Assembly: GCF_010093305.1 (NCBI RefSeq) | Contig: NZ_PDWS01000002.1 | Span: 1-64,000 of the forward strand | DNA: 64,000 bases | Direction of reading: 5' to 3' | Source of the DNA: Pseudoxanthomonas sacheonensis | Lineage (GTDB): Bacteria; Pseudomonadota; Gammaproteobacteria; Xanthomonadales; Xanthomonadaceae | Shown here: positions 55,051-64,000 of the stretch, in pieces | Layout: each line of letters begins with the position of its first letter | Numbering within the stretch: the first letter of the stretch is position 1 | Position numbers and translations under genes: made by a program | Notes under the pieces: generated by a model | The model's input: only the letters and a program-made list of their open reading frames with translations | The model's database searches: none | Told to the model about the DNA's origin: nothing

Positions 55051-56127
55051 ATGTCAATAACGACCACCTCGCTTGCCGCCGATTCCGACAAAGAGAGCCT
55101 TGCCACCCGCTTGGCGGAATCCGGCCGGCTCCCCGACAATCTGCTGCGGATGGGCATTCGCCGCCAATGCGCGCAACGCCTGAAAGACGAACGCAAAGGC
55201 GGCGCGGATGAAGTGTTCGCTCGTCAGCAAGCCTGGCTGGAAGGCTTGCGCAACAGCGATATGGCAGTCCAGACGCAGACGACCAATCGCCAGCAGCACC
55301 ATGAGTTGCCGCCGGAGTTCTTCCAGTTGTGCCTGGGCAGGCAGCTCAAGTACAGCAGCTGTTATTGGGACGAGGCGACCACCAGCCTGAACATGGCCGA
55401 AGAGCATATGCTGCGCCTGTACGGAGAGCGCGCGGAGCTGGCCAACGGCCAGCGCATCCTGGAGCTCGGTTGCGGCTGGGGTTCGCTGACGTTGTGGATG
55501 GCGAAGCAGTATCCGGAATCGAGGATAACCGCGGTCTCGAATTCGAAAATGCAACGCGAATACATCGAGGCCCGCTGTCTGGAGCGCGCCATCTTCAATG
55601 TGGAAGTCGTTACCGCGGACGTGAACAGCCTGCGCATGCAGGACGGAAGCTACGACCGCGTGGTGTCGGTGGAGATGTTCGAACACATGCGCAATTACCA
55701 GGACCTTCTGTCGCGCATCGCCGGGTGGCTGGTGCCGGGCGGCAAGCTGTTCGTGCACCTCTTCTGCCATCGCGAACTGCTGTACCTGTTCGAAGCCAAG
55801 GGCGAAGGCAACTGGATGGGCCGGCATTTCTTCACCGGCGGGTTGATGCCGTCGGCCGATACCTTGCTGCACTTCCAGGACAGGATCGCCATCGAACAGC
55901 GCTGGCTGCTGTCCGGCACGCACTACGAAAAGACCGCCAATGCCTGGCTGCAGAACCAGGACAACAATCGCGAGCAGGTCATGCGCGTGCTGCAGGGCGT
56001 ATACGGCATGGCCGATGCGCCGGTGTGGTACCAGCGCTGGCGCATGTTCTGGATGGCGTGCGCGGAATTGTTCGGCTACGACAACGGCAACGAATGGATG
56101 GTGGCCCACTACCGTTTCAGGCGCTGA
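55051..56127 (+). CDS. Cyclopropane-fatty-acid-synthase-family SAM methyltransferase
   Basis: 358 residues with the SAM site LELGCGWGSLTLWMA and the family segments QHHELPPEFFQLCLG, KYSSCYWDE, TAVSNSKMQREYIE and SVEMFEHMRNY. Relatives methylate membrane fatty acids or are annotated as CFA-like proteins of unknown substrate; the core is shorter than typical CFA synthase. GGAG lies about 7 nt before the ATG. Its end overlaps the convergent LigD gene by 19 nt. Confidence 0.9.
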   Translation: MSITTTSLAADSDKESLATRLAESGRLPDNLLRMGIRRQCAQRLKDERKGGADEVFARQQAWLEGLRNSDMAVQTQTTNRQQHHELPPEFFQLCLGRQLKYSSCYWDEATTSLNMAEEHMLRLYGERAELANGQRILELGCGWGSLTLWMAKQYPESRITAVSNSKMQREYIEARCLERAIFNVEVVTADVNSLRMQDGSYDRVVSVEMFEHMRNYQDLLSRIAGWLVPGGKLFVHLFCHRELLYLFEAKGEGNWMGRHFFTGGLMPSADTLLHFQDRIAIEQRWLLSGTHYEKTANAWLQNQDNNREQVMRVLQGVYGMADAPVWYQRWRMFWMACAELFGYDNGNEWMVAHYRFRR

Positions 56128-58622
56128 CGGGCCGATGGCGCCGGGGCCGCCCGGGTTCCGGGCAGTTCCTGGCGCAGGTCCTCTATTCCTTGCCAGGGAT
56201 CGTTGCGCAACTTGCCGGCGCGCTGCAGGGCGCGAGCCATCGTATACATGCCCGGGGCGGTGACCTTGGCCAGTTCTTCCCACTGCAGCGGCATGGCCAC
56301 GGTCGCCTCTTCGCGGGCGCGCAGCGACCAGGAGCAGACGCTGGTCGCGCCGCGCGCGTTGCGCAGCCAGTCGATGAAGATAACTCCATCGCGCTTGGCC
56401 TTGCTCATGGTGGCGACGTATTTGTCCGGCGAATGCGCGGCCAGCGCTTCCGCGAAAGCGCCGCAGAAATCCTTGACCTGGTCCCAGTCGGGGCCGGGCG
56501 TTATCGGTACCACGACGTGCAGGCCCTTGCCGCCGGACAGGCGCAGGTAACTCTGCAATCCCGCCTGCTGCAGGCGTTTACGCACATCGCGCGCGGCCGC
56601 CTTCACTTTGGCCCAACCGACTCCAGGGCCCGGATCGAGGTCGAAAACCAGGCGGTCGGGCTTTCCCGGTGCCGTTATTTTCGACCCCCACGGATGGAAC
56701 TCCAGAGTATTCATCTGCACCAGTTCGAGCAGTCCGGCGGCATCCTGCAGATACAGATAGTCCTCGTTGCCGCTTTTCTGTTTCAGCGTTATGGCCTTGA
56801 CCGACTTTCCCAATGCGTCGCTGTAGTGCTTCTGGAAGAAGCATTGGCCATGCGCGCCGTCGGGACAGCGGACCAGCGACAAGGGGCGCTCCACCAGCTC
56901 CGGAAGCAACCAGCGCGCGACCTGCCGGTAGTAGCCGGCTACGTCGCCCTTGCTGATCTTCCCTTTCTTGTAGACGATGCGGTCGGGATGGGTGATGGTC
57001 ACTTCATCCGAATCGGATGGATCCAGATCCTGCATGCTCTTGTCCTCGCGCAAACGCTTGAAACTGGCTTGCCGCAATAGCCCTTCCTTCGCCCAGCCGC
57101 GGAAAGCCACCTCGGCGATCAGCACGGGCTTTACCCACCGCACGCCATGGACGGAGAACGGCACGTGGCTCGGCAGTTCCACGCTTGCCGTGCCGGTACG
57201 CAATCCGGCCAGCATGGTTTCCAGCGAATCCAGCGTGGAGTCGTCGAAACCCGTCCCCACCCTGCCCGCGTAGCGCAAGACGCCGTTCTGCGGAACCGCC
57301 ACCAACAACGATCCGAATCCGCTACGCGAGCCCTTGGGCGCGGTATAGCCGACGATCACGAATTCATCGGTGTCTTCGTGCTTGACCTTGGCCCAGGCGT
57401 TGGAGCGCGACTGACTGTAGCTGGAATCGATGCGCTTGCTGACGATGCCTTCCAGTCCTTTGGCCTTGCTGGCTTCGAAAACCTCCTTGCCATGGCCCAG
57501 CACATGTTCGCTGTAGGCGATCACGCCGGGCCGCTTGCCGACGAGGTCCTTGAGCAGCGACTTGCGGTCGATGAGCGCGGCATGGCTGAGATCGACGCCG
57601 GCGATGCCGGGCATATCGAAGACGACGTAGCGCAAGGGCTGTTTCGAAGTCCCGTCGATGGCCCGTTGCAAGGCGCTGAAATCGCTGCAGCCCTGCCGGT
57701 CGATCACCACCAGCTCGCCGTCCAGGCGCACGTCCTTCACCGGCAACGCTTCCACCGCCTGGGCCACCTCGGGAAAGGTCGCGGTCCAGTCCAGTTTTCC
57801 GCGTGAGCGCAGCTTGACCTTGCCGTCGACCAGGTCGGCCATCATCCGATAGCCATCCCATTTGATCTCGTGCAGCCAGCCGTCGCCGGCCGGTGCGGTT
57901 TCGCGGCTGCTGGCCAGTTGCGGGGAGAATCCCGCCGGATAGTCGCCCTTGCGCGCTCCTGCCATGGCCAGGGCGCGACGCTTCCAGGCATCGGATCCCA
58001 AGGGCATGCGCTGCTTGGCGCGCGTCGCGGATATCCCGCTTCCGGCCTTCTTCCGAGGCGAGTTCTTGCCCAGCAGATCGTCCGCCTCGGCATCGCCGGA
58101 ATGTTCATCCTCGCGCTTGATCAGCAGCCACTGCTTCTGTTTGCCCCGCATGCTGGTACGCACCAGTTTCCACGCACCGTTCAACTTGTCGCCGTGCAGT
58201 ACGAAATCCAGCTTGCCCGCGGCAATGGCTTCAAGGGGGTCGCCTTCGCTGGCCCAGGTGCCGTGGTCGAATACCTGCACGTGCCCGGCCCCGTAATTCC
58301 CTTCCGGAATATCGCCTTCGAAGGTGGCGTACGCCAAAGGGTGGTCTTCGACTTCGACGGCAAGCCTTTTCTCCCCTGTGCGCAAGGACGGACCTTTGGG
58401 AACCGCCCAGCTCTTGAGCACGCCATCGGCTTCCAGCCTGAAATCGTAGTGGCGGGCGGTGGCGTGGTGCAGTTGCACCACGAATATGGGGCGATGCCGT
58501 GCGCCGGAAACGACGGCCGCCCGTTTCCCTTCTGCCGCGCGCCGGGCAGCCGGACCCGCATCGGAATCCGGTTCCGGCGTTTCATCGAAGCGCCGCTTGC
58601 GCTTGTAGTCGCGCAACGACAT
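56109..58622 (-). CDS. ligD: Multidomain DNA ligase D (phosphoesterase, ligase, polymerase)
   Basis: 837 residues. Order of domains: 3'-phosphoesterase (about 45-165, VQLHHATARHYDFRLEADG), ATP-dependent ligase with adenylated Lys254 in HEIKWDGYRMM and SKRIDSSYSQSRSNAWAKVK, then a primase-polymerase domain (about 540-820, VFDLDPGPGVGW with the catalytic Asp pair). This is the full bacterial NHEJ ligase. It follows the Ku gene by 3 nt in one operon. Repairs double-strand breaks, mainly important in stationary cells. Confidence 0.95.
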   Translation of the reverse strand: MSLRDYKRKRRFDETPEPDSDAGPAARRAAEGKRAAVVSGARHRPIFVVQLHHATARHYDFRLEADGVLKSWAVPKGPSLRTGEKRLAVEVEDHPLAYATFEGDIPEGNYGAGHVQVFDHGTWASEGDPLEAIAAGKLDFVLHGDKLNGAWKLVRTSMRGKQKQWLLIKREDEHSGDAEADDLLGKNSPRKKAGSGISATRAKQRMPLGSDAWKRRALAMAGARKGDYPAGFSPQLASSRETAPAGDGWLHEIKWDGYRMMADLVDGKVKLRSRGKLDWTATFPEVAQAVEALPVKDVRLDGELVVIDRQGCSDFSALQRAIDGTSKQPLRYVVFDMPGIAGVDLSHAALIDRKSLLKDLVGKRPGVIAYSEHVLGHGKEVFEASKAKGLEGIVSKRIDSSYSQSRSNAWAKVKHEDTDEFVIVGYTAPKGSRSGFGSLLVAVPQNGVLRYAGRVGTGFDDSTLDSLETMLAGLRTGTASVELPSHVPFSVHGVRWVKPVLIAEVAFRGWAKEGLLRQASFKRLREDKSMQDLDPSDSDEVTITHPDRIVYKKGKISKGDVAGYYRQVARWLLPELVERPLSLVRCPDGAHGQCFFQKHYSDALGKSVKAITLKQKSGNEDYLYLQDAAGLLELVQMNTLEFHPWGSKITAPGKPDRLVFDLDPGPGVGWAKVKAAARDVRKRLQQAGLQSYLRLSGGKGLHVVVPITPGPDWDQVKDFCGAFAEALAAHSPDKYVATMSKAKRDGVIFIDWLRNARGATSVCSWSLRAREEATVAMPLQWEELAKVTAPGMYTMARALQRAGKLRNDPWQGIEDLRQELPGTRAAPAPSARQRLKR

Positions 58623-58625
58623 CGG

Positions 58626-59522
58626 TCAGCCCGCCTTGCGCTTGGCCGCCTTCTTGGCAGGCGCTTTGGCCGCCTTCTTCGTCGCTTTCCTGGCTTTGGG
58701 GGCAGTCTTCTTGGCCGGCGTTCGTTTCTTGCTGTCCAGGCTCTTCTGCAGCAGCGACATGAAGTCCACCACATTGGTGGCGGCATCTTCCGGTTCGGCG
58801 CTGGATTCGACGATCCTGGTGGTGGCGCCCTTGGACTTCACGCGCTTCTGGATGATGGCCTGGAGCCTTTCCCGGAACTCGTCGTGGTAGTCCTCCGGCG
58901 ACCATTTCCCCGACATGGAAGAGATCAGTTGCTTGGCCATCTCCATTTCCTTGGGCGTGATCCGGTAATCGGAAGACTTGCCGGAAGGAAGCTTGTAATC
59001 GGCCGGGTCCACCAGTTCCTGCGGATACCTCAACAGGATCAGGACAAGCGCATCGTCCTCGGGCATGACCGCGCAAAGGTATTCGCGGGTGCGGATGACC
59101 ACGCGCGCGATGCCGATCTTCTTGCCAGCCTTCAGGGTTTCGCGCAGCAGCACATAACCCTTCTCCGCTTTCTTGCCCGGCACCAGGATGTAGGGCTTCT
59201 CGAAGTAACGATGGTTGATGCTGCCTGCGTCGATGAAGGCTTCCACCTCGACGGATTCATGGCTTTCCGGCGCAGCGGACTGGATATCCTCCTTCTCCAC
59301 GGTGACGTAGTTGCCCTTGGAGTATTCGAAGGCCTTGACGATGTCTTTCCAGGGAACCTCCTCGCCGGTCTCGGCGTTGACCCGCTCGAAACGGATCGGA
59401 TTCTTGTCGCGGGAATCCAGCATGCGGAAATGCAGGTCCACCTTGCGTTCGCCCGACATCAGCGAGACGGGGACGTTCAGCAGGCCGAAGGAAAGCGAAC
59501 CGGTCCAGATGGGTCTTGCCAC
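58626..59522 (-). CDS. ku: Ku protein of bacterial non-homologous end joining
   Basis: 298 residues. The Ku core starts IWTGSLSFGLLNVPVSL and includes PYILVPGKKAEKGYVLLRE and MSGKWSPEDYHDEF. The C-terminal about 40 residues are Lys/Ala-rich (KKTAPKARKATKKAAKAPAK), a DNA-binding tail. It binds DNA ends as a ring and recruits LigD, whose gene follows directly. Confidence 0.96.
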   Translation of the reverse strand: MARPIWTGSLSFGLLNVPVSLMSGERKVDLHFRMLDSRDKNPIRFERVNAETGEEVPWKDIVKAFEYSKGNYVTVEKEDIQSAAPESHESVEVEAFIDAGSINHRYFEKPYILVPGKKAEKGYVLLRETLKAGKKIGIARVVIRTREYLCAVMPEDDALVLILLRYPQELVDPADYKLPSGKSSDYRITPKEMEMAKQLISSMSGKWSPEDYHDEFRERLQAIIQKRVKSKGATTRIVESSAEPEDAATNVVDFMSLLQKSLDSKKRTPAKKTAPKARKATKKAAKAPAKKAAKRKAG

Positions 59523-60109: not shown

Positions 60110-61441
60110 TCAGAACGTGACCGGGACGCGCACCGTGAAGCTTAGGTCCGGCGTATCGCGGGTCAGGCCGGCGCCCAGGGCGACGTTCAGCGATGCCTTG
60201 TCGTTGAAGCGGTAGGTACCGCCCAGCAACAGCGTGGCCAGGGTGACGCGCACCGCGCCGGCGACGTCCTGGCCGTTCTGCTTGGTCTTGCCGATGATGT
60301 TCTGGTCGTAGCCGATGCTGATGGCGGCCTTCTCATTGAGCGCCAGGCCCATGCCAAGGTTGAAACCGATGATGTCGCCGGCTTCGACATCGCCCAGGAA
60401 TTCTTTCTGTCCGCCTATGACGGTGCGCGAGACATCGCTGCGCTCGAAGTTGTGCAGGTAGCTCAGACTGCCGAAGAAGACCACGGGATCGGACGGAAAC
60501 AGCCAGGTGATGCCCGGCTGCAGGGCCTCGAAGCCGCTTCCAGTGGGCAGTTCCAGAGGAAGGCCGGTGCCGGTGGTGTTGCCTATGCAGCGAGTGACGC
60601 AATCGGTGGTCACCTCGAACAGATCGGTGCCGGTACGGCTCTTGTAGCGCAGCCAGGCCACGTAATAAGGCTTGTCCGGACCTCCCCGGTTGAGCTGGTA
60701 GCGGGCGGTCACTTCCACATCGCCCATGCCGCTTCCGTTGGCGTTGAACACCCGATCCACCGCCGAACCGGTGAAGATTTCGCGGCTGACCGTGTCGCTG
60801 TTGACGTAAACATAAGGCAGCCTGGCTTCCATCTCGAAGCGGTTGCCCATGCCGTAGCGCGCGGTCAACACGGCCGTGGCCGAGGTGGTCTTCACCTGGC
60901 GCACGTCGATCAGGCCGATCAACAGCGCGGGGATGATGGTGTAGCCGACCAGGGCGACGCGGTCGTTGGACGCGTATCCGTATTGCAAGCCGGGTTCCAG
61001 CACCAGCGTGCCGGATGGCGTCAGCACGCCGGGTTGATCGAAGATCTGGGCCACTTCCGGCGGCCTGTTCTGCGATTCGGGCGCCTGCCCCACCGGCTGT
61101 CGCGACGGCTCCTGTGCGGCGGCAGTCTGCGCATAAGCCGGTACCTGCATGCTGCCTGTGGTAAGCGCCGGCGCGGGCATGCCGCGGGCGCGCGCATTGG
61201 CCAGCAGCTCTTCGTTCAAGGCCTGCTGGAGTTGCGAGAGATTGCGTTCCTGCGTTTCCAGCGAGCTGCGCATGTCCTGCAACTGGCGCGATTGCTCGTT
61301 GATCTGCCGCTGCAGTCCGTCCAGCTTGGATTCTTCATTGGCGGAAACGGATTCCTGCGCATGCAGCGATCCGCATATCGCCAAGGTCAGACAGGCCACG
61401 GGTAGCAAAGCAAGCAAATGCGACGGTCCCTTTCGTTTCAT
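60110..61441 (-). CDS. FapF-like outer-membrane protein: coiled coil plus beta-barrel
   Basis: 443 residues. Signal peptide (about 28 residues), a coiled coil (about 38-83, LDGLQRQINEQSRQLQDM), a Pro/Gln-rich linker, and a beta-barrel of about 280 residues starting VLEPGLQYGYA and ending VRVPVTF with a terminal aromatic. This layout fits FapF, the trimeric outer-membrane exporter of Pseudomonas amyloid, and more loosely the phenol-degradation MetA-type barrels. It is last in a minus-strand operon in the position fapF holds. GGGGA lies 7 nt before the ATG. Confidence 0.75.
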   Translation of the reverse strand: MKRKGPSHLLALLPVACLTLAICGSLHAQESVSANEESKLDGLQRQINEQSRQLQDMRSSLETQERNLSQLQQALNEELLANARARGMPAPALTTGSMQVPAYAQTAAAQEPSRQPVGQAPESQNRPPEVAQIFDQPGVLTPSGTLVLEPGLQYGYASNDRVALVGYTIIPALLIGLIDVRQVKTTSATAVLTARYGMGNRFEMEARLPYVYVNSDTVSREIFTGSAVDRVFNANGSGMGDVEVTARYQLNRGGPDKPYYVAWLRYKSRTGTDLFEVTTDCVTRCIGNTTGTGLPLELPTGSGFEALQPGITWLFPSDPVVFFGSLSYLHNFERSDVSRTVIGGQKEFLGDVEAGDIIGFNLGMGLALNEKAAISIGYDQNIIGKTKQNGQDVAGAVRVTLATLLLGGTYRFNDKASLNVALGAGLTRDTPDLSFTVRVPVTF

Positions 61442-61463: not shown

Positions 61464-61976
61464 TCAAGGTGATCCTGGTGCAGCGATAAGCGCGTTGTGC
61501 AGCGCGCCGTAGGTGTTCATTTCCTGCAGCATGCCCAACGTGTCCACACCCACGTTCAATGTGGTCAGCGCGGTTATGGTCTGGCCGTCCAGCGTGTTCT
61601 GGATCACCAGCGCGTTGCCGCCGGCGCCGGGATCGATGCGATTGCCTTCGCCGATCTGCACCACTCTGCCCTCGTTGATGGCGGCCAGGGCGCTGGCCTG
61701 GTCGGCGGTCATGCGGCCCAGATCTGGAATCTGCAAGTTGGCGCTGGCGACGAGTTGCCCGTTGACGTAGACCAGCCGTTCGATTCCGAACGAGAGCACC
61801 ATTCCGGACGGCATCATCAACCCGCCCCTCATGTCGGCTAGTCGGGCCGGATCCACCGGCACCCATTCTTCGCCAAGAAGCGGTGGCGAACTTGCACCGT
61901 CCGCTCTGGCGGTAAGCGGCAGGCATGCGCCTGTCGCGAACATGCACAAGCAAGCGAAACCGGCTATGGCGTTCAT
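61464..61976 (-). CDS. Small secreted protein with internal RGG motif, in the fapE position
   Basis: 170 residues with a signal peptide (about 25 residues). It holds VPVDPARLADMRGG (residues 39-52), nearly identical in pattern to IPVDAGELDRLRGG of the protein at 62678-63211. The C-terminal part has the VIQNTLDGQTI segment shared with the other small proteins of this operon. A fibre-associated or fibre-minor-subunit role, with cleavage after Gly-Gly by the adjacent C39 peptidase, is inferred. It starts 3 nt after the peptidase gene ends. Confidence 0.72.
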   Translation of the reverse strand: MNAIAGFACLCMFATGACLPLTARADGASSPPLLGEEWVPVDPARLADMRGGLMMPSGMVLSFGIERLVYVNGQLVASANLQIPDLGRMTADQASALAAINEGRVVQIGEGNRIDPGAGGNALVIQNTLDGQTITALTTLNVGVDTLGMLQEMNTYGALHNALIAAPGSP

Positions 61977-61979
61977 GGC

Positions 61980-62681
61980 TCAGATATCTCCCGGTCCACG
62001 GCGCGGCATGGCTATATTGCGCAGCCCTTCGCGCTGGATGCCCATGTCCAGCGGGGCCGGCGGCGCGGTGCGCCAGTCGCGCGGATGATTGAAGCGTGCG
62101 ATCTCGCGCCGGTTATGGATCACGAACAGCACGCGGTTGTCCCACAACGCCTCGAAGCGCGCGCGCGACATCGCGCGGGTACCGCGCGCCGGGTCGCCCA
62201 GCAATACGCGGCCGTTGCGCAGGCCTTTGACCACGACGAAATGCCGATAGCCGCGATCGTTCAACAGCACGATCGCCGGCACGCCCTCTTCGGACAGCTT
62301 GTCCAGCGGCAGTTCGAAACCGTCGGCCTCGAAACCCCGCGACTGCAGATAGCGCCGCATGTCCAGCATCGAGAAGCCTTCCTTGCGGATCTTGGCCTGG
62401 TCGCCGTTGGTGTACATCCTCACGAAGACCTGTTCTTCGTTCACCGGCACGCCGTACTGGTAGCTCAGCAGCGTGGCCGTAGCCGCCGATCCGCAACTGA
62501 AATCGTAGCGCTGAGGTACGGTGGTCCTGAACCGCGCTTCCTTCAAACTGGTGATGCGCAAGCCGTAGCTGCCGCCGTACGGCGCGCGCACGTCGATTCC
62601 GCCCGCCCGCACCGGCATGGCCCATGCCAGTAGCGACAAAGCCAGACCGACGCCCACGATCAGGGATACGGCTCTGGTCAT
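61980..62681 (-). CDS. C39-type cysteine peptidase, FapD-like
   Basis: 233 residues with a signal peptide (about 26 residues), no ABC transporter attached. The C39 triad is visible: Cys63 in RYDFSCGSAATATLL, His147 in YRHFVVVKG and Asp163 in LLGDPARGTR. C39 peptidases cut after double glycine in bacteriocin leaders; FapD of the Pseudomonas Fap system is of this type and works in the periplasm. Its ATG overlaps the stop of the gene before it. Both neighbours carry an L..xRGG motif, so they are the likely substrates. Confidence 0.85.
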   Translation of the reverse strand: MTRAVSLIVGVGLALSLLAWAMPVRAGGIDVRAPYGGSYGLRITSLKEARFRTTVPQRYDFSCGSAATATLLSYQYGVPVNEEQVFVRMYTNGDQAKIRKEGFSMLDMRRYLQSRGFEADGFELPLDKLSEEGVPAIVLLNDRGYRHFVVVKGLRNGRVLLGDPARGTRAMSRARFEALWDNRVLFVIHNRREIARFNHPRDWRTAPPAPLDMGIQREGLRNIAMPRRGPGDI

Positions 62682-63211
62682 GGCGTCGGCGCCACGAACT
62701 GCACGTTTACCACCATTCCATTCTGGATCAGCACGTTGCTGCCGGTGTTCTGGATCACCGTGTTGATGCCGTTGCCGTTGGCGAAAGAGCCGTCGCTGAT
62801 GACATTGGCGCCGCTGACGATATGGTCGGCGGTATTGCCTTCGACGGTTCCGTCTATCAGCACGTCGTTGTCGACCGTGCTTTCCCCGCCGCGCAACCGG
62901 TCCAGTTCTCCGGCATCGACTGGAATGCCGATACTGGGGTTGCCGACTTCATCGGACGATACTGCGACCGGTGCCGCCGGTTGGATTTCCTTGCCGAAAA
63001 GCACACTGTCGGAGTGCATGCCGTCGAGGAGCAGACTGTCGGGGAGCTTGTCGCTGTCGGCAACGCCGTCGACAAGCACGAAGGCCGCAGTGCCGGCAGC
63101 AGGCAGTCCATCGGCGTCGTGCCCCTGTACAGACGCTTCGGTGGAGCCTGCCAGGCAGGGGCCGGTCGCTAGAACACAGGCCAGCGACAAAGTGATGCGA
63201 TTGATGCGCAT
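62678..63211 (-). CDS. Secreted Fap-like protein with double-glycine (ELDRLRGG) motif
   Basis: 177 residues with a signal peptide (MRINRITLSLACVLATGPCLAG). IPVDAGELDRLRGG ends at residue 109; it has Glu, Leu, Leu, Gly, Gly at the -8, -7, -4, -2, -1 positions of the classic C39 cleavage consensus. The 68 residues after it are Asn/Gly/Val-rich with VIQNTGSNVLIQNGMVVN, similar to the end of the protein at 63324. This C-terminal part looks like an amyloid or fibre subunit. AAGGAG 9 nt before ATG 63211. Confidence 0.75.
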   Translation of the reverse strand: MRINRITLSLACVLATGPCLAGSTEASVQGHDADGLPAAGTAAFVLVDGVADSDKLPDSLLLDGMHSDSVLFGKEIQPAAPVAVSSDEVGNPSIGIPVDAGELDRLRGGESTVDNDVLIDGTVEGNTADHIVSGANVISDGSFANGNGINTVIQNTGSNVLIQNGMVVNVQFVAPTP

Positions 63212-63323: not shown

Positions 63324-64000
63324 TTACGGACCTACGGTCAGGTTGGCCTGCACGGTGATGCCCTGCTGGATCAGCGAGGCTGCGCCGCTGTTCTGGGCCG
63401 CTACCATGACGCCCGCTGCCGATTGGCCGACGCTGGTCATGTTGTTGGACATGTCGAAGGCGCCTGCATCGTTGGCCACTGAACCGCCGTTTCCGCCTGC
63501 TCCACCGACCGCTCCGTTGCCGACGCCGCCATTGCCGGTGCCGCCGTTGCCGTCGCCGCCCACACCGCCTTCGGCGCCCACCGCGCCCTCGGCGCCATCG
63601 CCGGCAGTCGCATCGCCATTGGTCGCGCTTGAGGAAGCGCCGCCGTTGGTGGCATCGCCATTGGTGGCCGAACCGCCATCGCCGCCGTTGCCTGCGGTGC
63701 TGGCCACGTCGCCGCTGTTGCCGCCCGTGCCGGAGCCCGCGCCGCCGGTGGAGGTCGCTGCACCCGAAGTGCCCGCGCCGCCACTGGCCGTGGCGGTGCC
63801 ACCGGTGCCGGTGCCGTCGCCGGAAGTGCCGGCGCCGCCGGTTCCGGTCGCATCGCCGCTGGTCGCGCTGCCTGCACCGCGTTCGCGCACGCGTCCGCTC
63901 TGGCCGTCGCCATCGCCGCCGCCGGCCGCACTCAAGCCGCCGCCGTCGCCGCCGCCGGCAAGACCGTCACCGCCGCCGGCCGCGCTAAGCGCGCCCGCAT
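63324..64000 (-). CDS. Very Gly/Ala/Thr-rich fibre-like protein, C-terminal part (gene starts beyond the window)
   Basis: The frame is open to the right edge, giving 225 residues of a longer protein. Most is Gly-rich, low-complexity sequence with blocks like SAAGGGDGDG, TSGDATGTGG and NGGDGGSATNG, recalling PGRS proteins. The last 40 residues are different: AAGVMVAAQNSGAASLIQQG then ITVQANLTVGP, which resembles VLIQNGMVVNVQF of the next gene. It occupies the fapB/fapC position of a Fap-like operon and is probably the main fibre subunit. No start codon or signal peptide is in the window. Confidence 0.7.
   Translation of the reverse strand, partial: AGALSAAGGGDGLAGGGDGGGLSAAGGGDGDGQSGRVRERGAGSATSGDATGTGGAGTSGDGTGTGGTATASGGAGTSGAATSTGGAGSGTGGNSGDVASTAGNGGDGGSATNGDATNGGASSSATNGDATAGDGAEGAVGAEGGVGGDGNGGTGNGGVGNGAVGGAGGNGGSVANDAGAFDMSNNMTSVGQSAAGVMVAAQNSGAASLIQQGITVQANLTVGP

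Follow-up and report, generated by a model that had tools for sequence, protein, structure and literature searches.

What does a C39 peptidase act on when it is predicted to be secreted, stands free of any ABC transporter, and is encoded between the genes for two small secreted proteins that share a leader-like motif? This question is raised by a minus-strand operon in the window, as we call the 64,000-nucleotide stretch of Pseudoxanthomonas sacheonensis DNA analyzed here (host genome of 4.04 Mb in 44 contigs). In 5' to 3' order on that strand, the operon encodes a Gly/Asn/Ser-rich secreted protein of 466 aa (63324 to 64000, continuing beyond the window to 64724), the 177-aa protein A (62678 to 63211), a FapD-like C39 peptidase with a Sec-like N-terminus as judged by eye (61980 to 62681), the 170-aa protein B (61464 to 61976), and a FapF-like outer-membrane transporter of 443 aa with a barrel (60110 to 61441). 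The first of these was called as an open reading frame, A and B as reading frames backed by alignments, and the peptidase and the barrel by profile matches (Pfam and NCBIfam for the peptidase, NCBIfam for the barrel). B thus takes up the position of FapE, between the fapD-like and fapF-like genes, bearing a leader-like element. The 466-aa protein is probably the large fiber subunit; its in-window part has no Pfam or NCBIfam match, and by eye it has no C39-like motif. Also by eye, it displays NSD repeats near the N-terminus, and its C-terminus, QNSGAASLIQQGITVQ, is similar to the end of A. Adjoining the operon are open reading frames of 837 and 298 aa (56109-59522) that by eye are LigD-like and Ku-like, a bacterial end-joining pair.

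The initial annotation had proposed that residues 39-52 of B and 96-109 of A share an internal double-glycine motif that fits the C39 cleavage consensus, and the alignments bear out these residue numbers. The motif of B, VPVDPARLADMRGG (61821 to 61862, minus strand), has Val at -12, Leu at -7, Met at -4, and a terminal RGG (L46, R50, G51, and G52), and that of A, IPVDAGELDRLRGG (62885 to 62926, minus strand), has Val at -12, Leu at -7, Leu at -4, and again RGG (L103, R107, G108, and G109). The consensus of Leu at -7, a hydrophobic residue at -4, and GG at -2/-1 is therefore present in both, and the hydrophobic -12 adds to it. The likeness had been described as extending over 14 positions; it is better captured by -12, -7, -4, -3, -2, and -1, with -8 being Glu in A and Arg in B. 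Both sites are internal, as had been stated: B consists of a Sec-like N-terminus (by eye), a short pro-peptide, the RGG, and a predicted mature domain of 118 aa, and A of a Sec-like N-terminus (by eye), a drifting pro-region, the leader-like motif ending in LDRLRGG (residues 103-109), and a further 68 aa.

The peptidase matches the Pfam C39 model (PF03412) with 79.1 bits against a cut-off of 22, in keeping with the annotation of a FapD-like C39 enzyme next to both proteins. Its nearest solved structure by sequence is LahT (6mpz; E 2e-8), and Gln57, Cys63, His147, and Asp163 align with Gln21, Cys27, His101, and Asp117 of LahT. It also matches NCBIfam FapD (NF058616; E 3.6e-41) with 140.9 bits, below the equivalog cut-off of 330, and the barrel matches NCBIfam FapF (NF058560; E 1.5e-49) with 169 bits, below the equivalog cut-off of 700. 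In comparison, two Pseudomonas loci with the element in FapE pass both models: their peptidases score 438.2 and 398.6 bits, over the FapD cut-off, and their FapE proteins 346.6 and 360.3 bits, over the FapE cut-off of 250. Neither Pfam nor NCBIfam matches A, and for B nothing rises above cut-off; against NCBIfam FapE (NF058559), B gives no match at E<=1 and its leader fragment none at E<=10. Thus, like Pseudomonas Fap (fapABCDEF), the window operon has the order substrate, fapD, fapE position, and fapF, a C39 peptidase with a Sec-like N-terminus, a FapF-like barrel, and a leader-like element in the FapE-position protein; unlike it, A and the 466-aa protein occupy the place of FapA, FapB, and FapC, and the FapD and FapF scores lie below the cut-offs. 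The Acinetobacter Fil operon (FilB and FilC) similarly combines a related C39 peptidase with a barrel, but both window proteins score far below the respective cut-offs (124.9 bits for FilB, whose cut-off is a curated one, and 41.1 bits for FilC). In two FilB-like loci (L090 and L092), which have the C39 and barrel genes side by side and which we read as Fil systems, the element is instead M.D..M..[VA].GQ, immediately after the signal peptide. According to the portions of the literature that touch on family breadth, FapD and FapF likely belong to larger families (PMC3792158), and fapD-fapF pairs are present in five further phyla (PMC6173800). The window operon belongs to this wider fapD-fapF kind.

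A C39 match is found in 56 of 149 genomes of the family (own included), and in 31 of these it is a close orthologue, with 65-100% identity. Profiles of A and of B each match 31 of the 149 genomes, the same 31 that have the orthologous peptidase, and the profile search found neither A nor B in any of the 149 family genomes that has no C39 gene. This linkage supports the earlier interpretation that the two proteins are matured by the FapD-like enzyme. In the 30 orthologous loci analyzed (type 1 loci, own included; 31 were found and G127 was left out), L-7, R-3, G-2, and G-1 are invariant in every A and every B, and a FapF-like gene comes next in all 30. The length following the GG is nearly constant, 64-77 residues in A and 115-120 in B in 29 of the 30 loci, with one merged reading frame of 335, and the pro-regions of both proteins drift. 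Only Met1, the Leu of the motif, and the RGG are invariant up to the site in the 11 A proteins aligned (of the two alignments, A2 includes 10 of the 30 loci and A3 includes 11). Five B proteins (L009 and L019-L022), and likewise L035, were read through stop-to-stop translation. Outside A and B, the core L..[LMIVYQ]RGG turns up by chance 32 times in 1,286,017 residues of other reading frames from the loci retrieved; this background rate, together with the conservation, rules out a chance match. Within the window, A and B use different codons for the invariant residues, and codon choice also varies among the orthologues, indicating that the likeness is kept at the protein level and ruling out a duplication of the motif at the DNA level. 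The codon survey, whose 34 B matches from 30 loci include four surplus ones, serves as a basis for codon variety only.

Beyond the orthologous loci, a FapE-position protein with the element is present in 19 of 20 type 2 loci (and, by eye, in L035), in 25 of 40 class-level loci, and in 78 of 80 named loci, mostly from Pseudomonas and Halomonadaceae. The type 2 loci were drawn from 33 weaker C39 matches in the family (34-50% identity), and the class-level loci from 57 matches in 369 genomes; two of the remaining matches are the window's own and that of its family orthologue in G010. True Pseudomonas FapE carries the element as ..ELKDQELATLRGR↓YVMP (the arrow marks the proposed cut), with Arg at -1, and in PIELKDQELATLRGR↓YVMPGR the site lies about 19 residues after the likely Sec site, placed by eye. 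In a FapD tree of 91 representatives from 150 labelled loci, -1 of the FapE-position protein is Gly in 34 and Arg or Lys in 57, and these form two clades separated by one change with 100/100 support, the window peptidase and Fap proper falling on opposite sides. L072, L082, and L114, in which the first pattern match lies elsewhere, were left out of the tree; by eye they end in RGK, RGG, and RGR, respectively. Five genomes have both operon types (G010, G021, G026, G072, and G083), with Gly in type 1 and Arg or Lys in type 2, and the FapD of a Pseudoxanthomonas (Lysobacteraceae) locus, L178, is the tree sister of one from the window's family. Hence, the expected conservation of RGG across homologues holds for all 30 A and all 30 B proteins of the type 1 loci, but the second Gly, which gives way to RGR or RGK outside the window's clade, is by its distribution in these sequences a lineage-specific feature; for this residue, the outcome that the initial annotation named as refuting its proposal, a lack of RGG conservation among homologues, does occur. 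The split between Gly and Arg/Lys fits a co-adaptation of peptidase and site; as there is a single change between the FapD clades, the way in which -1 follows them adds no independent proof. The two clades differ at 39 FapD positions (within residues 50-195), and no single position can therefore be assigned to the residue at -1.

An Arg or Lys at -1 resembles a trypsin-type site, suggesting the alternative that cleavage at the Arg of RGR or RGK is the work of a different protease of the periplasm, and that FapD cuts FapF or something else; the discussion of FapD targets in Rouse 2017 (PMC5557850) also suspects the FapF linker. However, all 34 representatives of the window clade in the tree have Gly at -1, with the peptidase encoded in the same operon, and a leader-like pattern in FapF occurs in single loci only (L062 and L036). 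We accordingly consider this explanation very improbable. The FapF linker was also rejected as a general site, with none seen by eye in the FapF starts inspected. The repeats of FapC were likewise tried as cut sites: L.GNAL.NATGN↓IGVN is similarly spaced, yet several of the repeats contain it and its last two residues are GN, and it was taken as structural.

Position -12, which lay outside the search pattern, is hydrophobic in all 116 proteins profiled (56/56 FapE of the R/K clade, 30/30 FapE-position proteins of the G clade, and 30/30 A proteins), compared with 28% of 122 chance matches to the core. The FapE-position part of this profile took in 86 of the 91 representatives; L009, L021, L022, and L035 have no automatic match, and that of L017 is in the wrong place. 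Automatic FapE-position matches were obtained for 147 loci, and in 144 of them -12 is L, I, V, or M. The three exceptions all fall among four matches in the wrong place (L017, L072, L082, and L114), and at the true motif of these loci -12 is again I, L, M, or V. Position -4 is hydrophobic in 83% of the A proteins of the 30 type 1 loci, and -8 is Glu or Asp in 77% of FapE from the R/K clade and 30% in the G clade. In the account of leader binding in PMC6363468, Val-4, Leu-7, and Leu-12 of the leader occupy pockets of LahT, the ComA leader has L-12, E-8, and L-7, and LahT cleaves after GG, GA, and GS and does not accept Lys or Asp at -4; these three are the only pairs named for -2/-1 in the portions of the C39 literature cited here. 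In sequence terms, the -12/-7/-4 pattern of A, B, and FapE thus fits the double-glycine peptidases LahT and ComA, and A and B of the window display the full signature of such a leader, with GG at -2/-1. Like the bacteriocin exporters LahT, PCAT1, and ComA, the window enzyme is of the C39 family with the same catalytic residues, and the candidate substrates have hydrophobic -12/-7/-4 and Gly at -2. Unlike them, it is free-standing and secreted, with no ABC transporter, and its leaders lie behind a Sec-like signal and have Arg at -3, with Arg or Lys at -1 in the sister clade.

Could the motif instead be the start of the FapE/B fold, with A being alike by descent or chance? Profile comparison of B with FapE aligns the motif and about 16 residues beyond it (95%, E 3.9e-8), meaning that a part of the conservation could be structural, and a low-confidence AlphaFold model of B places a strand across the RGG. 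On the other hand, profile comparison of A with B (E 1.1e-8) aligns the two mainly over the motif, so that A has the same element ahead of a different domain; past those 16 residues, mature B and mature FapE have no detectable likeness; and the -12/-7/-4 hydrophobic spacing equals that of the known C39 leader. A purely structural role hence seems improbable to us. Mature A is similar to the repeats of FapB and FapC in an iterated search in which drift is possible; by this repeat likeness, which is the only hint of amyloid, it resembles a small FapB/C-repeat-like subunit. The AlphaFold models (mean pLDDT of 47.3 for B and 47.8 for A) are of too low a quality to support structural claims; both show a short helix within the leader, spanning residues 43-47 in B and 100-106 in A, where no other helix is modelled, and this is a hint at most.

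The experimental literature on Pseudomonas Fap bears on whether such a leader would be cut. The sections of Rouse 2017 (PMC5557850) that deal with FapD describe it as periplasmic, with its Cys required for FapC secretion, which is blocked in the C38A mutant, and its target as unclear. The relevant parts of PMC5557850 and PMC6173800 leave its substrate and site open, and among the open-access PMC papers listed, none names such a site in its title or in the opening of its abstract. In the peptide map of PMC5557850, as described there, FapE alone has no peptides in the first ~70 residues, and FapA to FapD have peptides throughout, with no processing reported, which limits the earlier interpretation. 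We digested 11 FapE sequences other than that of UK4 in silico with trypsin. In five of the 11, the first tryptic peptide of 7-25 residues beyond the site does not come until residue 97 or further on; in the other six, a peptide of 13-23 residues starts 4-6 residues past the site, and the ~70-residue gap would need another cause there. In eight of the 11, the pro-region would yield a tryptic peptide of 8 to 11 residues (e.g., DQELATLR), whose absence from the map would fit removal of this region. A cut after Arg or Lys would itself look like an ordinary tryptic end in a peptide map. The proposed FapE cut is hence compatible with the map as described in Rouse 2017 (PMC5557850), which falls short of proof.

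C39-like domains have a chaperone-like role in hemolysin-type secretion. By analogy, the element might be a docking or export signal that is bound by the C39 protein (or by FapF) and stays uncut, with the peptidase acting partly as a chaperone. This would accommodate the variation at -1 (G, R, and K in FapE; G, T, M, R, K, and Q in A-position proteins) alongside the persistence of L-7 and, mostly, of -12 and -3. It would also accommodate Pseudomonas FapA, which has a similar pattern yet is given as unprocessed in the map of Rouse 2017 (PMC5557850). That the catalytic triad and the Gln are invariant in all 91 peptidase representatives counts, however, against this reading, as do the arrest of FapC secretion by FapD C38A and the lack of N-terminal FapE peptides, both from the same parts of PMC5557850; overall, we regard an uncut signal as unlikely, though the least unlikely of the alternatives to cleavage. 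The FapA element, of the LSDGDFAGVASG type, shares the -12/-8/-7/-4 spacing and is seen at L117:1414-1851 as well as in other Pseudomonas loci; the FapA of L117 passes the NCBIfam FapA cut-off. A reading frame with the FapA-like pattern LSD.[DE][FI]..[VI].SG, taken as one regular expression, occurs in 38 of 108 R/K-clade loci, and a second FapD contact through this element is possible.

Two further observations count against cleavage as the best explanation. First, 15 of the 40 class-level loci have no motif-bearing FapE-position protein. Over all the sets, the loci with no motif are L106, L121 (contig end), L081 (short C39 reading frame), and L088-L101; in eight of the 14 in this last series (L089-L094, L096, and L098), no more than about 120 bases separate the peptidase gene from the start of the FapF-like gene, too few for a FapE-position protein. 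Second, 13 other loci of the G clade have a protein in the A position upstream; 11 of these proteins match the A profile, and by eye 11 have a hydrophobic -12, L-7, and R or S at -3, but only two have a hydrophobic -4 and one (L079) the GG. The lack of a hydrophobic -4 in 11 of the 13 weighs against the proposal given the rejection of Lys and Asp at this position reported for LahT (PMC6363468), and the case for A, with GG kept in one of 13, is limited to the window's own lineage. A search for unlinked substrates in the same genome, using a codon-limited DNA pattern, gave 16 matches, none of which by eye resembles a secreted protein with the motif behind the signal; as the pattern misses even A and B, this negative carries little weight. 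In Halomonadaceae operons (L102, L104, and L108), an upstream reading frame has a FapE-like IRGR or IQGR element, and one genome (G193) has six FapD-like C39 matches.

Taking together the observed pattern, its conservation, its linkage to the peptidase, and the co-segregation of -1 with the peptidase clades, we propose that the window operon is a Fap-like amyloid or fiber secretion system, in a sister clade to Fap proper, whose C39 enzyme cleaves a post-Sec double-glycine leader of B and, here, also of A; we regard this as the probable explanation. Sec would first export A and B. The FapD-like peptidase, through Cys63, would then read the leader of the FapE-position protein B and, within the lineage of the window, that of A too, with a short helix putting the hydrophobic -12, -7, and -4 residues into its groove. 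The cut would fall after the residue behind the conserved Gly at -2 (after RGG here), freeing mature B and A for export via the FapF-like pore. The corresponding FapE element of Fap proper has RGR or RGK at its end, and there the predicted FapD cut lies behind the final Arg or Lys. Recognition of the B motif by the enzyme is well supported by the sequence comparisons, from which binding, cleavage, the position of the cut, and the role in export are predicted. Measured against this, what the initial annotation observed is confirmed and is stronger than first stated; its interpretation, right in kind and partly supported, has to be amended as regards the second Gly and A.

One possibility, on which we are evenly divided, is that the FapD family as a whole consists of periplasmic double-glycine-leader peptidases with a Gly-specific clade, that of the window, and an Arg/Lys-cutting clade, and that the target of FapD is FapE at ELxxLRGR↓Y. 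If so, the substrates would have another leader behind the Sec signal, as long as that of a bacteriocin (in Pseudomonas FapE, about 19 residues), and Arg or Lys at -1 would be a specificity not named for C39 peptidases in the cited parts of the literature. A cut of this kind would be invisible to trypsin-based proteomics, and the RGR or RGK ending would explain how both a search for GG and a tryptic map could miss the site. With FapD being essential for the secretion of the Fap amyloid, the motif provides a residue-exact prediction for Pseudomonas FapE and for B and A of the window, and it may serve as a sequence handle on the substrates of other free-standing C39 peptidases.
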